Part shown: positions 56,692 through 63,714 of the stretch, in pieces
Layout: each line of letters starts with the position of its first letter
How positions within the stretch are numbered: position 1 is the first letter of the stretch
Origin: an uncultured Marivita sp.
GTDB lineage: Bacteria; Pseudomonadota; Alphaproteobacteria; Rhodobacterales; Rhodobacteraceae
DNA: 64,000 nt
Assembly (NCBI GenBank): GCA_947503115.1
Contig: CANNCS010000003.1
Span: 1-64,000 of the forward strand
Reading direction: 5' to 3'
The notes under the pieces: model-generated
Told to the model about the DNA's origin: nothing
Seen by the model: the letters and a program-made list of their open reading frames with translations, nothing else
Database searches by the model: none
Program-made: the position numbers and the translations under genes

Positions 56692-56783
56692 TTTCGGCCC
56701 CATACCAACCCAACACGCGGCCCATGATCGCCCACCGATCGGCAAAGCTTGCAATGCGCCCTGCCCGGTTGTACGCCCAACAC

Positions 56784-56940
56784 GTCATGGTCCGGGCCAA
56801 ACCCGGTGAAAAGGGAACGTGGTGAAACCCCACGACTGCCCCCGCAACTGTAAGCGGCGAGCGTGTTCGGCACATGCCACTGGGAAACCGGGAAGGCCCG
56901 ACGCACGCAACGACCCGCAAGTCAGGAGACCTGCCGTGAC
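56784..56940 (+). ncRNA. cobalamin riboswitch
   Basis: Adenosylcobalamin-sensing leader RNA. Conserved elements in order: GGTGAAAAGGGAACGTGGTG, CCCCGCAACTGTAAGCGG, GCCACTGGGAAACCGGGAAG and the B12 box GTCAGGAGACCTGCCGTG. It lies 118 bp before btuC. A later hairpin (57006-57014 with 57019-57027, loop CACG) without a T tract may form the expression platform, acting on translation or Rho. Confidence 0.93.
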
Positions 56941-57058
56941 AGATCACCCTACACTCGCGCGGGGTGCGTGGGCTGTGACGGTACTCCGGTGTGGTGACAG
57001 TCACCGCCTTTGGGCACGCCCGAAGGCTTGATATGTTCGATGCGCGGGAGGCAGGGCG

Positions 57059-58039
57059 GTGAAGCTCTTTAGTGCGCTAGTTATTTTGACCGGAGTGATG
57101 TTCCTTGCATCCCTCTTTGTCGGCTATGCTGCGATCTCTATCCCGGAAGGACTGTCGGCGCTGATTGGCCGGGGCAATCCGCTTTACGTCACCATTATGC
57201 AAGACATACGCCTGCCTCGCGCGCTTCTGGCGGCGATGGTTGGTATGTCGCTCGGACTTGCCGGTGCGGCGATGCAGGGCTTCCTGCGGAACCCGCTGGC
57301 CGAACCCGGCCTGATCGGCGTATCCGGCTCCGCGGCCCTCGGCGCGGTGATTGCCCTCCAAACCGGATTGGCCGCTGCGTTCACCTTGGCCCTGCCCGTC
57401 GCCGCGCTGGCCTTCGCCGCACTCGCTGTCGGGCTGATTCTGCTGCTCGCCGGTCCGCGCGGGTCGTCCTTGACCCTCATACTCGCCGGGATCGCCGTAT
57501 CTGCTTTCGCGGCAGCCCTGACCTCCCTGACCCTGAACCTTTCGCCCAACCCCTACGCCGCGTCCGAGATCATGTTCTGGATGATGGGGTCAGTCGCCAA
57601 CCGCGCCATGAGCCATGTCTGGTTGGCGCTGCCGATCATGGCACTTGGCTGGATCGCACTGGCCGGTCTGGGCCGGGGCCTCGACGCGCTGACGTTGGGC
57701 GAAGACGCCGCCGAGGCATTGGGCATCTCGCTCTCTCGACTGCGCTTGCAACTGCTGTTTGGCACCGCTGCCGCCGTGGGCGCAGCCACGGCAATAGCCG
57801 GAGCGGTGGGCTTTGTCGGGCTTGTGGTGCCGCACATCCTGCGCCGCTTTGCCCATGGTCGTCCCTCGACCCTGCTCTGGGCCTCGGCCCTTGGCGGAGC
57901 GGCAATGGTGCTGGCGGCCGACTTGACCACCCGCCTTGTCCTGCCGGACCGCGACCTGAAACTTGGCGTTGTCATGGCTCTGATCGGCGCGCCGCTGTTC
58001 CTGCACCTTATATATAAGACACGGAGGGAAATCGCATGA
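57059..58039 (+). CDS. btuC: cobalamin ABC transporter permease (FecCD family)
   Basis: A 326-residue inner-membrane permease with nine to ten helices. GAAMQGFLRNPLAEPGLIGVSGSAALGAV and GAVGFVGLVVPHILRRF are FecCD/BtuC hallmarks, and LGEDAAEALGI is the coupling loop. GTG start with GGGAGG upstream. The cobalamin riboswitch just upstream supports B12 rather than siderophore transport. It overlaps btuD by four bases. Confidence 0.92.
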   Translation: MKLFSALVILTGVMFLASLFVGYAAISIPEGLSALIGRGNPLYVTIMQDIRLPRALLAAMVGMSLGLAGAAMQGFLRNPLAEPGLIGVSGSAALGAVIALQTGLAAAFTLALPVAALAFAALAVGLILLLAGPRGSSLTLILAGIAVSAFAAALTSLTLNLSPNPYAASEIMFWMMGSVANRAMSHVWLALPIMALGWIALAGLGRGLDALTLGEDAAEALGISLSRLRLQLLFGTAAAVGAATAIAGAVGFVGLVVPHILRRFAHGRPSTLLWASALGGAAMVLAADLTTRLVLPDRDLKLGVVMALIGAPLFLHLIYKTRREIA

Positions 58040-58794
58040 CCCTCCTTTCCGTGCAAAACCTTACCGTTCGACGCGGCGAATGCCCGGTGGTGGACGCCGC
58101 ATCGCTCACCATTGGCCTCGGAGAATGTGTTGGCCTGATCGGTCCCAACGGCGCGGGCAAAACCTCGCTCCTGCGTGGTGCGCTGGGTCTCTTACCATAT
58201 GAAGGCACCAGCAGCCTGGCCGCCCTGTCCCCAAAACAGCGTGCTGGCCAAGCCGCGTGGCTGCCCCAGACACGCGAAATCGCCTGGCCAATGAGCGTCG
58301 AGCGCATCGTGGCCCTTGGCCGTCTGCCTTACCTCGCCCGCGGCGCGCGCCTTAGTCCCGCCGACCAAAGCGCCGTTGACGCTGCACTGACACGCATGGG
58401 CCTGCAGAACTACCGCACCCGGCTGGCCACCGCCTTGTCGGGCGGCGAACAGGCTCGCGTGCTGATCGCCCGTACTCTGGCGCAGGACACGCCATTGCTG
58501 ATGGCGGATGAACCCATCGCCGGGCTGGACCCGGCAGCACAGATCGCCACGCTACAGGTGTTCGAAACCCTCGCCCAAGAGGGCCGCGCGGTGCTGACGT
58601 CACTGCACGACCTGTCGTTGGCCGGGCGCTATTGCACCCGGCTCATCCTGATGGGTGCTGGCCAGATCATTGCGGATGGCACACCAGATCAGATCCTGAC
58701 CGCCGAACGTTTGGAAGAGGTGTTTCACCTGCGCGCCAACGTCGTGCCAACGCCGCATGGCCCACTTGTGCAACCCTTGGGTGTGATCCAATGA
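58036..58794 (+). CDS. btuD: cobalamin ABC transporter ATPase
   Basis: A 252-residue ATPase: Walker A GPNGAGKT (36-43), signature LSGGEQARVLIARTL, Walker B LLMADEPIAGLDP and the switch His in SLHDLSLAGRYC. It drives BtuC. It overlaps btuF by four bases. Confidence 0.92.
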   Translation: MTLLSVQNLTVRRGECPVVDAASLTIGLGECVGLIGPNGAGKTSLLRGALGLLPYEGTSSLAALSPKQRAGQAAWLPQTREIAWPMSVERIVALGRLPYLARGARLSPADQSAVDAALTRMGLQNYRTRLATALSGGEQARVLIARTLAQDTPLLMADEPIAGLDPAAQIATLQVFETLAQEGRAVLTSLHDLSLAGRYCTRLILMGAGQIIADGTPDQILTAERLEEVFHLRANVVPTPHGPLVQPLGVIQ

Positions 58795-59579
58795 CCGCGC
58801 CCAACCGCATTGTGTGCCTGACCGAAGAAACGGTCGAAACGCTTTATCTCTTGGGTCAAGAGGACCGCATCGTCGGTGTCACAGGCTATGCCGTGCGCCC
58901 CAAACGCGTCCGTCAGGAAAAGCCGCGCGTTGGGGCATTCACCTCTGCCGACATCCCCAAGATCCTCGCCCTGCGGCCCGATCTGGTCCTTACCTTCTCG
59001 GACCTGCAAGCCGACATTGCCGCCGAGCTGATCCGTGCCGGGATCGAAGTGATGGCTTTCAACCAGCGCAACGTGGCAGGCATCCTGCGCATGATCCGAA
59101 CGCTGGGCCGACTGACAGACTGCATTGAACAAGCCGAAGCTCTGGCGCAAAGCTATGAAGCCCGCATCACCACCCTACGAAACGCTACGCCAGCACACCG
59201 CCCCCGCGTCTATTTTGAAGAATGGGACGACCCGATGATCACCAGCATCGGCTGGGTGTCCGACCTGATCGACATCGCTGGCGGCACCGATTGCTTTGCC
59301 CACCTGCGGCACGAACAGTCGGCAAAGAACCGCATTGTGACGTCGCAAGACGTGATCGCCGCCGCACCCGAAGTGATTGTCGCCTCATGGTGTGGCAAAA
59401 AGGCGAGACCGGAAAAGATCGCCGCGCGCCCCGGATGGGATGTCATCCCAGCCGTCGCCCAAAACCGCATCATCGAAATCAAATCGCCGCTGATCCTGCA
59501 ACCGGGACCAGCCGCCCTGAGCGACGGGCTTGACGCCCTGATCGCCGCCCTCTGCCCCAAGGACGTGCCCGCATGCTGA
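58791..59579 (+). CDS. btuF: cobalamin-binding protein-like (BtuF type) without signal peptide
   Basis: A 262-residue protein of the periplasmic-binding fold of class III: RIVCLTEETVETLYLLGQEDRIVGVTGY, RPDLVLTFSDLQAD and VYFEEWDDPMITSIGWVSDLIDIAGG are BtuF-like. There is no signal sequence at the ATG (MTAPNRIVCL) that overlaps btuD, and upstream in-frame codons are btuD antisense-frame residues, not a leader. The protein may be cytosolic or exported by an unknown route. Ends seven bases inside exbB. Confidence 0.8.
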   Translation: MTAPNRIVCLTEETVETLYLLGQEDRIVGVTGYAVRPKRVRQEKPRVGAFTSADIPKILALRPDLVLTFSDLQADIAAELIRAGIEVMAFNQRNVAGILRMIRTLGRLTDCIEQAEALAQSYEARITTLRNATPAHRPRVYFEEWDDPMITSIGWVSDLIDIAGGTDCFAHLRHEQSAKNRIVTSQDVIAAAPEVIVASWCGKKARPEKIAARPGWDVIPAVAQNRIIEIKSPLILQPGPAALSDGLDALIAALCPKDVPAC

Positions 59580-60193
59580 CCCAGATCACCGATTTCCTGA
59601 ACATCGGCGGCCCCGCCTTGTGGGTGATTGCTGGGCTAAGTGTGGTGACGCTGGGCCTGATCCTATGGAAATTATGGCGCTTGTCCCTGATGGGCGCTTG
59701 GCGGCGCGATGCAACCGACGCCGCCATCGGTCAGTGGCAGATTGGCCAATTTGACAATGCCGTTGTCAGTTTGCGCAATCGCAATGGCCTGCGCGCCCGC
59801 GTGGTCAGGGCCGCGATGCAAGCCAGCCAAACGCTCTCTTCCGAGGACGCCCGTGACGAAACCACCCGCGTCGCCCGAGGCGCGCTGATGGATGCAGGTA
59901 GCGGCCTGCGCGCGCTTGATCTGATTGCCACGATCGCCCCGCTTGTGGGCCTGCTGGGCACCGTCCTTGGCATGATCGACGCGTTTCAGGCGTTGCAAGA
60001 CAGCGGCGCCCGCGCTGACCCATCAGCCCTTGCAGGCGGTATCTGGGAGGCGCTTTTGACCACCGCCGCCGGTATGGCCGTGGCGATCCCCGCCTCGATG
60101 GCGCTCAGCTGGTTCGACAGCATCAATGACCGACTCGCGCATGATTTCGACGACCTCGCCACCCGCGTTCTGACCAAAGGCAAACAGGGCTGA
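59573..60193 (+). CDS. exbB: ExbB/MotA/TolQ-family proton channel
   Basis: A 206-residue inner-membrane protein with three helices (about residues 12-34, 120-145 and 155-180). LIATIAPLVGLLGTVLGMIDAFQAL and TTAAGMAVAIPASMALSWF are the conserved channel helices. With ExbD it uses proton flow to energise TonB. The gene overlaps btuF, an unusual joining of import and energiser genes. Confidence 0.93.
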   Translation: MLTQITDFLNIGGPALWVIAGLSVVTLGLILWKLWRLSLMGAWRRDATDAAIGQWQIGQFDNAVVSLRNRNGLRARVVRAAMQASQTLSSEDARDETTRVARGALMDAGSGLRALDLIATIAPLVGLLGTVLGMIDAFQALQDSGARADPSALAGGIWEALLTTAAGMAVAIPASMALSWFDSINDRLAHDFDDLATRVLTKGKQG

Positions 60194-60194
60194 C

Positions 60195-60569
60195 ATGCTG
60201 AACCTTACGCATCAGTCACGCCGCCGCCGCATCGGGCTCACACCGATGATCGACGTCGTGTTCCTGTTGCTGGTGTTCTTCATGCTTGCCGCCCGCTTTG
60301 GCGTGACTGACGCGATCCCGGTCACTCTGTCGGGCGGCGCGGCACAACCCTATGACGGCCCACCACGACTGGTCACCGTCTTGCCTGACGCGCTGCGCGT
60401 AAACGGCATTGAAACCTCCGATCCGATTGCCAGCCTGACCCCCCTCATGGGCGTTGAATCCGACATCATCCTGCTGCGCGCCCGCGATGGGGCCTCGGTC
60501 CAGCACCTGCTCGATGTCATGGGCACGCTGCGCGGCGCGGGCTGGACCAACCTTGTGGTACTGGAATGA
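60195..60569 (+). CDS. exbD: ExbD-family transporter, Asp-containing copy
   Basis: A 124-residue bitopic protein. The single transmembrane helix TPMIDVVFLLLVFFMLAARF carries Asp20, the proton-carrying residue of ExbD. The short periplasmic domain ends at residue 124. It overlaps the next exbD by four bases. Confidence 0.93.
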   Translation: MLNLTHQSRRRRIGLTPMIDVVFLLLVFFMLAARFGVTDAIPVTLSGGAAQPYDGPPRLVTVLPDALRVNGIETSDPIASLTPLMGVESDIILLRARDGASVQHLLDVMGTLRGAGWTNLVVLE

Positions 60570-60955
60570 GACGCGCGCCGCTTGTTCCCCCACGTCCAAG
60601 ACGGGCCGCGCGCGAACCGGTCGTGCCGATGATCAACGTGGTGTTCCTGCTGCTCATCTTCTTCCTGATGACCGCGCAGATCGTGCCACCTGCCCCTTTT
60701 GACCTTTCCTTGCCCAATGCCAGCGGCGACGAAGACACCGGCCAGACCGCTCTTTATATCAGCGCAGACGGCGAGATCGCGTTTGACGCCGCACGGGGCG
60801 ATGCCGCGTTGGCGCAAGCGGTTGCCGCAACGCAGGACGTGCCACTGCGCCTCTACGCCGACGCAAACCTCCCTGCCGCGACTTTGGCGCAGCTGTTGAC
60901 GCAACTTGCCACGCTCGGCGCCTCGCAGGTCGAGATCGTGACAGAGGGCAACTGA
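60566..60955 (+). CDS. exbD: ExbD-family transporter, Asn variant copy
   Basis: A 129-residue ExbD homologue whose helix reads PMINVVFLLLIFFLMTAQI: the conserved Asp is replaced by Asn24 (codon AAC at 60635-60637). The rest of the fold, including a periplasmic domain of about 80 residues, is intact. Because E. coli ExbD needs that Asp, this copy probably cannot carry protons alone and may form a mixed dimer with the upstream ExbD inside the ExbB pentamer. It shares a base with tonB. Confidence 0.92.
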   Translation: MRRAPLVPPRPRRAAREPVVPMINVVFLLLIFFLMTAQIVPPAPFDLSLPNASGDEDTGQTALYISADGEIAFDAARGDAALAQAVAATQDVPLRLYADANLPAATLAQLLTQLATLGASQVEIVTEGN

Positions 60956-61923
60956 TGCGGATCATCGAGTTCACCGCCTTCATTGCCCTTTCCGGCGCAC
61001 TACATGCCGCATCGCTGGCCATTGCCCCGCTTCCCGGAGGCGGTAGCAGCGGCGGCCAAGGCGGCACAGCGGACGTTACACTGCAAGCGGCAACGCCAAC
61101 TCTGGCCGCGATGGTGCAGGACTGGGACCGCCCACCCGAAGTAAGCGACGCCCCTGACTTGGTCACACCGGATGCCACCGCGGCACCGGATCGCCCCGCG
61201 CAGGACATAGCTCCGGCCCCGCATCCTCAGATCGCCGCCCTCGCGGCCCCTCAGGCAGAAGCCAATCTGCCACGAACCGACACCCGCCTGCCCGCGCCCC
61301 CTGTGCCGTTTGCAGCCCCGCCCCCCGAGGCACTGCCTTTGCCACAGGCCGACGCAACCGCGGTGCCGGATATGCCTCGCGCAGAACGGGACGCGCGCCC
61401 AAAAGTGCCCGCGCAACTGCATATGGCAGACGCCGCCCCCGCACTGCCAGAGGTGGACACCACGCCCGCCGCTCCGCGCATCGCGCCGCTGGCCTCGTTG
61501 CGCCCGGAAACCCGCCCTGAACGACGGGTCGCAGCACCAAGTGCCGCGCGCCCGGCGCAAACGGCCAAGGGGAGCGGGGCAAAAGCCACCACAGCCAAGG
61601 CACCAGCGCGGGCCGCGCCGGTGGCAAAAGGCCCTTCAACGGCGCAACTGGCGTTATTGGAACAGCAATGGGGGGCGCAGATCACAACCGCATTGCGACG
61701 CGCGCACCGACCTTCACGCGGGCCAAAGGGGACAGTGAAGCTGGTGATCTCAATCAGTCCAGCCGGGCGCGTCGCGAGCGTGTCTCTGGCTGCATCGTCG
61801 GGCAACAGCCGTCTGGATCAAGCTGCCCTCGCAGCAGTCAAACGCGCCCGGTTCCCTCGTGCGCCAGAGGGGCTGACAAAATCCAGCTACCGCTTCAGCC
61901 AACGTCTGACCGTGTCGCGGTGA
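60955..61923 (+). CDS. tonB: TonB energy transducer
   Basis: A 322-residue protein: an N-terminal helix with the SxxxH motif (Ser13, His17 in SGALH), a long Pro/Ala-rich periplasmic spacer (about residues 60-225) and a C-terminal TonB domain (WGAQITTALRRAHRP, then KLVISISPAGRVASVSL and AALAAVKRARFPRAP). It transmits energy to outer-membrane receptors; no receptor gene is in the window. Last gene of the riboswitch operon. Confidence 0.92.
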   Translation: MRIIEFTAFIALSGALHAASLAIAPLPGGGSSGGQGGTADVTLQAATPTLAAMVQDWDRPPEVSDAPDLVTPDATAAPDRPAQDIAPAPHPQIAALAAPQAEANLPRTDTRLPAPPVPFAAPPPEALPLPQADATAVPDMPRAERDARPKVPAQLHMADAAPALPEVDTTPAAPRIAPLASLRPETRPERRVAAPSAARPAQTAKGSGAKATTAKAPARAAPVAKGPSTAQLALLEQQWGAQITTALRRAHRPSRGPKGTVKLVISISPAGRVASVSLAASSGNSRLDQAALAAVKRARFPRAPEGLTKSSYRFSQRLTVSR

Positions 61924-63265: not shown

Positions 63266-63484
63266 ATGGCATACGAAACAAACAGTATCGGCGCAGTCGG
63301 CAACACCATCATGGATCGGGTGAACAGCCTGATCGCAGATTACCGCGCCCAAGCGGCACGCCGCAAGGTCTACCGCGACACGCTGCGCGAACTCAACGCG
63401 CTGACGCACCGCGAATTGTGCGATCTTGGCTTGAACCATTCCGAGATCAAGCGCGTTGCATATCAGGCAGCTTACGAAAGCTGA
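63266..63484 (+). CDS. ccaF1: DUF1127 protein (CcaF1-like)
   Basis: A 72-residue basic protein with the DUF1127 core (RDTLRELNALTHRELCDLGL, then SEIKRVAYQAAYES). ATG 63266; the open frame runs further upstream without similarity. In Rhodobacter sphaeroides the matching gene (CcaF1, RSP_6037) encodes an RNA-binding protein, and its mRNA is processed into four CcsR sRNAs. The same arrangement follows here. DUF1127 proteins are commonly stress-induced by RpoHI/HII. Confidence 0.85.
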   Translation: MAYETNSIGAVGNTIMDRVNSLIADYRAQAARRKVYRDTLRELNALTHRELCDLGLNHSEIKRVAYQAAYES

Positions 63485-63536
63485 ACGAAATTCGGTGAGC
63501 ATGGCCCGGTTCGGGCCCCTCGCCAAACCGGCTCGG

Positions 63537-63561
63537 ACGTCCTCTCCTCCTCCCTGGACGT
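63537..63561 (+). ncRNA. CcsR1-type stem-loop
   Basis: ACGTCC / GGACGT stem with loop TCTCCTCCTCCCT. The loop holds the CCUCCUCCC anti-Shine-Dalgarno-like motif of CcsR sRNAs. First of four repeats after the DUF1127 stop. Confidence 0.8.
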
Positions 63562-63570
63562 TCCGGACTT

Positions 63571-63607
63571 GACGGTGGCACCTCTCCTCCTCCCTGGTGC
63601 CACCGTC
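63571..63607 (+). ncRNA. CcsR2-type stem-loop
   Basis: A perfect 12-bp stem (GACGGTGGCACC / GGTGCCACCGTC) with the identical 13-nt loop TCTCCTCCTCCCT. The strongest hairpin of the series. Confidence 0.85.
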
Positions 63608-63638
63608 ACAAAGTTTCGGGCTTCGGCCCACACGATCT

Positions 63639-63667
63639 CGGCATCCTCTCCTCCTCCCTGGATGCCG
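63639..63667 (+). ncRNA. CcsR3-type stem-loop
   Basis: An 8-bp stem CGGCATCC / GGATGCCG with the same 13-nt CCTCCTCCC loop. Stem sequences differ between copies while the loop is constant, which indicates selection on the loop. Confidence 0.82.
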
Positions 63668-63678
63668 TGAACTGGAAG

Positions 63679-63714
63679 CGGTGGTGCCTCTCCTCCCTTG
63701 GCACCACCGTTTTT
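63679..63714 (+). ncRNA. CcsR4-type stem-loop and terminator
   Basis: A 10-bp stem CGGTGGTGCC / GGCACCACCG with a shortened loop TCTCCTCCCTT, directly followed by TTTTTCTTG. It serves as the last sRNA hairpin and as the intrinsic terminator of the ccaF1-CcsR transcript. Confidence 0.85.

Follow-up and report, generated by a model that had tools for sequence, protein, structure and literature searches.

How might a Ton motor run if just one of its two ExbD chains could carry protons? Two identical chains that carry protons are regarded as a requirement of this motor; in the locus described here, and in hundreds of its relatives, one of two exbD genes keeps the aspartate (Asp). The locus lies in a stretch of 64 kb from an uncultured Marivita sp., the whole of which is called the window below.

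The operon and its two exbD genes

The operon runs on the + strand in the order riboswitch, BtuC-, BtuD- and BtuF-like genes, exbB, exbD1, exbD2 and tonB, with the following features.

56771..56952, + strand: cobalamin riboswitch 5' of the operon (Rfam RF00174; score 130.5 bits, gathering score 31.5)
57059..58039, + strand: BtuC-like permease (Pfam FecCD, 275 bits; top NCBIfam match BtuC, below the equivalog cut-off)
58036..58794, + strand: BtuD-like ATPase (Pfam ABC_tran; top NCBIfam match corrinoid ABC transporter ATPase, below cut-off)
58791..59579, + strand: BtuF-like substrate-binding protein (Pfam Peripla_BP_2, 153.6 bits; NCBIfam matches include BtuF, below cut-off)
59573..60193, + strand: ExbB (Pfam MotA_ExbB, 100.7 bits; Thr148 and Thr181, E. 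coli numbering, retained)
60195..60569, + strand: ExbD1, the Asp copy (Pfam ExbD, 50.4 bits)
60252..60254, + strand: GAC codon of ExbD1 Asp20, the protonatable site, read from the sequence
60566..60955, + strand: ExbD2, the Asn copy (Pfam ExbD, 71.4 bits; modelled periplasmic domain similar to ExbD structures)
60635..60637, + strand: AAC codon of ExbD2 Asn24, which replaces the essential Asp (sequence; 211 distinct Asp/Asn pairs)
60955..61923, + strand: TonB (Pfam TonB_C, 47.1 bits; the sole TonB_C protein in a search of the organism's own genome)

The two exbD genes overlap by the four letters ATGA (60566-60569). ExbD1 reads LTPMIDVVFLLLVFFML, with Asp20 in the helix LTPMIDVVFLLLVFFMLAARFG, and ExbD2 reads VVPMINVVFLLLIFFLM, with Asn24 in the helix VVPMINVVFLLLIFFLMTAQIV. 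The essential transmembrane Asp, corresponding to Asp25 of E. coli ExbD, is present in the former and absent from the latter. Direct reading of the sequence thus bears out the first-pass annotation, which had proposed an Asp-to-Asn exchange in the second copy; the positions that it gave, 60632-60637, cover an Ile-Asn dipeptide, of which the Asn codon proper is 60635-60637. Both proteins pass the cut-off of 25.4 bits of Pfam PF02472 (ExbD/TolR). The NCBIfam ExbD equivalog TIGR02803 (cut-off 152.95 bits) is not reached; ExbD1 scores 38.7 bits, and ExbD2 is absent from the matches, its one NCBIfam match being tolR with 32.3 bits. Because the two proteins share just 35 identical residues over 124 and 129, the pair is not the product of a recent duplication. 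AlphaFold models ExbD2 with moderate confidence (mean pLDDT 77.9), and the periplasmic part of the model resembles solved structures of the ExbD domain in complex with TonB or a D-box peptide, with a target TM of 0.73-0.74, a probability of 1.00 and an E value of ~0.003 against the TonB-bound ExbD periplasmic domain. ExbD2 is a member of the ExbD family by descent and fold that lacks the functional Asp.

The genome (99.95% complete) encodes three ExbD-family proteins, namely TolR and the ExbD1/ExbD2 pair, two ExbB/TolQ proteins, of which the ExbB of the window is the sole non-Tol ExbB, one TonB and one TonB-dependent receptor, which makes the pair part of the sole Ton motor of this genome. The sole receptor (L322 1363-3195, contig C91) is BtuB-like, its top matches being the TonB-dependent B12 receptor model and solved BtuB; it scores 216.7 bits with the B12 receptor model, below the equivalog cut-off of 599.7. 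A second cobalamin riboswitch stands before it (L324 3781-3988, contig C91). The marks of a B12-dedicated Ton system are all found, with cobalamin riboswitches at both loci, BtuCDF-like genes and a BtuB-like receptor, and the job of the motor is most likely B12 uptake alone.

Elsewhere in the window, a DUF1127 gene (63266-63484) is followed by four hairpins (63533-63714) whose loop is CUCUCCUCCUCCCUGG or a shortened version of it, the last one with a U run. This arrangement is similar to that of the CcsR ('cuckoo') RNAs of Rhodobacter, which are located behind a DUF1127 gene; an Rfam search of the hairpins gave no match above the gathering score.

Occurrence and history of the Asp/Asn pair

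Tandem ExbD pairs were collected by searching whole genomes of the family, the order, the class and the phylum, from which 60 and then 34 more regions were fetched; most searches used ExbD2 as the query, which biases the set toward relatives of ExbD2. Among the 245 distinct pairs, 211 are Asp/Asn and 34 are Asp/Asp, and none has the reversed order (Asn/Asp) or Asn in both copies. A solo Asn copy was not seen either, the 27 ExbDs that stand alone in the fetched regions all carrying Asp. The Asp/Asn pairs are spread over 30 coded families, 28 within the Alphaproteobacteria and two outside the class but inside the phylum. A control sample drawn with the general Pfam ExbD model from 46 genomes, with roughly one genome for each family in the class, contained 17 tandem pairs, of which 11 are Asp/Asn and 6 are Asp/Asp. 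In the genus of the window, a Pfam search of 17 genomes found 34 adjacent ExbD pairs besides TolR and no unpaired Ton-type ExbD; 17 pairs are of B12 type and all 17 of these are Asp/Asn, 5 belong to a second Asp/Asn type, and 12 are of an Asp/Asp type from another operon. A search of a plasmid collection gave no match.

The first-pass annotation had asked whether Asn is fixed in the second copy of Rhodobacterales tandem pairs, and alignment answers in the affirmative: a contig scan with ExbD2 yielded 80 further loci of the Rhodobacteraceae in the broad sense, where copy 2 has Asn in 80/80 and copy 1 has Asp in 80/80. With the 211 distinct pairs, in which the order is constant, the comparative claim extends far beyond the Rhodobacterales. 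Two apparent exceptions in gene structure were discarded. In L176 (1030-1911) both ExbD copies stand within one open frame of a draft assembly; copy 1 appears to end in a frameshift, and a natural fusion of the two copies would have the wrong membrane topology. The seeming loss of copy 1 in L048 is an artefact of a long stop-to-stop frame, and the Asp copy is present.

The Asn codon is AAC in 153 and AAT in 48 of 201 pairs, and at least 12 switches between the two fall on a tree of 50 representatives with Asn throughout; the codon changes synonymously while the residue is constant, and therefore the site is free to mutate yet held at Asn. The flanking positions also differ between the copies. 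Four residues before the site, Thr stands in 194 of 201 copy 1s and Val, Ile or Leu in 199 of 201 copy 2s, and seven residues before it an acidic residue (Glu or Asp) is found in copy 2 only (183/201); in the ExbD2 of the window, the -7 and -4 positions are residues 17 and 20 (60614-60625). E. coli ExbD carries the Thr, a nearby acidic residue and the Asp all on a single chain, and from these alignments the three look as if split over two chains here. The ExbB proteins of Asp/Asn loci retain Thr at positions 148 and 181 (pore-lining in E. coli) in 198/198 aligned sequences. At position 176 of the E. coli numbering they have Glu (147), Val (34) or Gln (8), and the Trp at 175 is invariant; Glu176 of E. 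coli ExbB has been reported to be essential (PMC8599685).

The history of the pair was followed on an ExbD tree built with the Asp/Asn trait column taken out, in which few forks are resolved, the proteins being short. One side holds the copy 2s of the B12 kind together with those of type B (SH-aLRT 93), and the opposite side holds copy 1, TolR, E. coli ExbD and type C, with two weakly placed rows deviating. Constraining the copy 2s of types A and B to one clade was not rejected and gave a likelihood above that of the free quick tree. Asp in both copies, which the first-pass annotation had regarded as counting against its reading, does occur, mostly in operons of another kind (type B, type C and tandems that resemble TolR) but also in three loci otherwise of B12 kind (L214, L242 and L268). 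The Asp-bearing copy 2 of L268 is the sister of an Asn copy (support 97), and that of L242 falls inside a Rhodobacteraceae group (support 95); these placements suggest a return to Asp from Asn. A clade of the Asn copies alone is likewise not rejected (p 0.30), and gain and loss are not separable for all of the Asp cases. Asn in copy 2 is overwhelmingly kept, yet it is not indispensable in every lineage, because L214, L242 and L268 carry Asp.

The type B operon (L101, L105, L111, L256, L260-L264, L284, L299, L301, L303, L306 and L307) encodes the tandem ExbD with Asp in both copies and an ExbB; the next protein is of ~357 aa, and the L105 example of it has no Pfam match.

A probable motor with two unlike chains

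In rotary models the proton channel switches from one Asp to the other in turn, with 36 degrees per proton (PMC12215075), and the ions per turn amount to 10 (PMC9389320). In E. coli, ExbD(D25N) is inactive (PMC11658791), so that an Asn/Asn dimer is unlikely to act as a motor alone. As the first-pass annotation had proposed, ExbB, ExbD1 and ExbD2 probably form one motor, with an Asp/Asn heterodimer in the ExbB pentamer and one protonatable chain, a reading drawn from the sequences of the genes and their relatives. It is favoured by the gene overlap, the single Ton-type ExbB, the strict pairing, the fixed order and the lack of solo Asn copies; the Asp in copy 2 of L214, L242 and L268 speaks against it, indicating that Asp can be tolerated there. 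A PDB sequence search returned no Asn-type ExbD chain, and no structure, cross-link or mutant of any Asp/Asn pair was found in the sources searched.

For such a heterodimer we infer a 1:1 ratio of the chains, a 5:2 stoichiometry and also the stroke and the number of protons. Inside the ExbB pentamer, the pore helices would come from a single ExbD1 (Asp) and a single ExbD2 (Asn), and ExbD1 alone would take up and release protons. The Asn of ExbD2 would occupy the opposite position as a permanent stand-in for a protonated, neutral Asp; the MotB D22N exchange mimics the protonated state (PMC9389320). Alternation between two Asp is excluded for this heterodimer because it has a single Asp, and the 36-degree, 10-proton cycle would give way either to strokes of 72 degrees, each driven by one proton and adding up to 5 protons at most in a full turn, or to rocking back and forth. 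The periplasmic domain of ExbD2 would still be offered to TonB, on which the motor would pull to import B12 through BtuB. Whether a widespread branch of 5:2 motors consists of obligate Asp/Asn heterodimers of this kind, with a single protonatable site, 72-degree strokes or rocking and no more than 5 protons per turn, appears to us an evenly balanced matter.

The main rival to the heterodimer is a working motor of ExbD1 homodimers (Asp/Asp), for which alternation would be feasible, with ExbD2 as an accessory or a regulator; we consider it unlikely, though clearly ahead of the remaining explanations. As a regulator, ExbD2 might join the pentamer only when the system is resting or signalling, and switch the motor off with an Asn that cannot be deprotonated, a role to which the imitation of the protonated state by MotB D22N (PMC9389320) would be suited, and in Xanthomonas campestris exbD2 is dispensable for iron uptake and required for other TonB-linked functions (PMC3551730). 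However, the overlapping genes and their obligate pairing in 30 families point to two proteins that are made in equal amounts and work together, and exbD1 and exbD2 of Sphingobium SYK-6 are both non-disruptable (PMC8599685), although that pair is reported as Asp/Asp. An Asp/Asn heterodimer could also be tuned to another ion or pathway, with Asn24 or the acidic residue at -7 binding an ion such as Na+. The near-fixation of that Glu or Asp in copy 2 would fit this proposal, as would the many carriers that are marine genera, judged by name; but the threonine ring of ExbB is unaltered, an acidic residue near the -7 place is found in canonical ExbD and TolR as well, and we regard the proposal as improbable.

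Loss of the active residue is a common early sign of decay, from which ExbD2 might be taken for a decaying duplicate. The retention of Asn in 211 pairs amid synonymous codon change already contradicts this, and the Pfam score and the periplasmic fold of ExbD2 are intact, leaving decay very little credence. Still less, indeed next to none, is left for a sequencing or assembly error, which the first-pass annotation had allowed for: AAC is just one base off GAC, but the identical residue appears across independent isolates, assemblies and many genera, and its presence in 80/80 loci and 211 pairs rules the error out.

Related motors and the meaning of the pair

Tandem exbD genes were already known, and it is the conserved Asp/Asn pair, as read from the sequences, that appears to be the new part; a literature search, with most subscription journals outside its scope and hence weak as evidence of novelty, found no paper that describes Asn at this position of ExbD or an ExbD1-ExbD2 heterodimer. 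The E. coli ExbB-ExbD-TonB motor (5:2) shares with the present one Thr148 and Thr181 of ExbB, a single-helix ExbD with a TonB-binding periplasmic domain, TonB as partner and the B12 receptor BtuB as client, but it has one exbD gene, and both of its pore helices carry Asp25, whereas two proteins with Asp on one are found here. Sphingobium sp. SYK-6 likewise has tandem exbD genes after one exbB (tonB1-exbB1-exbD1-exbD2), each of which resisted disruption; unlike here, Asp25 is reported in both ExbD1 and ExbD2 and tonB comes first in the order (PMC8599685). The X. campestris genes also form a tandem in a tonB-exbB cluster, where exbD2 is unneeded for iron uptake (PMC3551730), this pair being compared by description only. 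Beyond Ton systems, the AglRQS gliding motor of Myxococcus combines one MotA-like protein with two MotB-like proteins, and whether these form a heterodimer or homodimers is an open question; in contrast to the present pair, both are described with Asp, and the motor serves gliding, not transport (PMC9389320). TPH-vWA proteins with TolQ homologues similarly place heterologous pairs of transpore helices in a TolQ-like pentamer, but their helices are described with a conserved Asp, and they have a vWA domain and no ExbD periplasmic domain (PMC12204202).

An experiment that fixes a 5:2-type motor to one active and one inactive chain was not found in the literature search, and nature appears to have fixed just this combination across many families. 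The Asp/Asn pair labels both chains, which is impossible in symmetric motors, and would make the step size, the proton count and the roles of the chains measurable; the genome of the window allows clean genetics because it has one receptor and one Ton motor only. The pair would thus serve as a natural counter-example against which rotary models that assume two-Asp alternation can be tested (PMC12215075). If the reading is true, two acidic chains in alternation are no requirement of 5:2 motors, and the picture of two alternating sites may fail for a whole bacterial branch.
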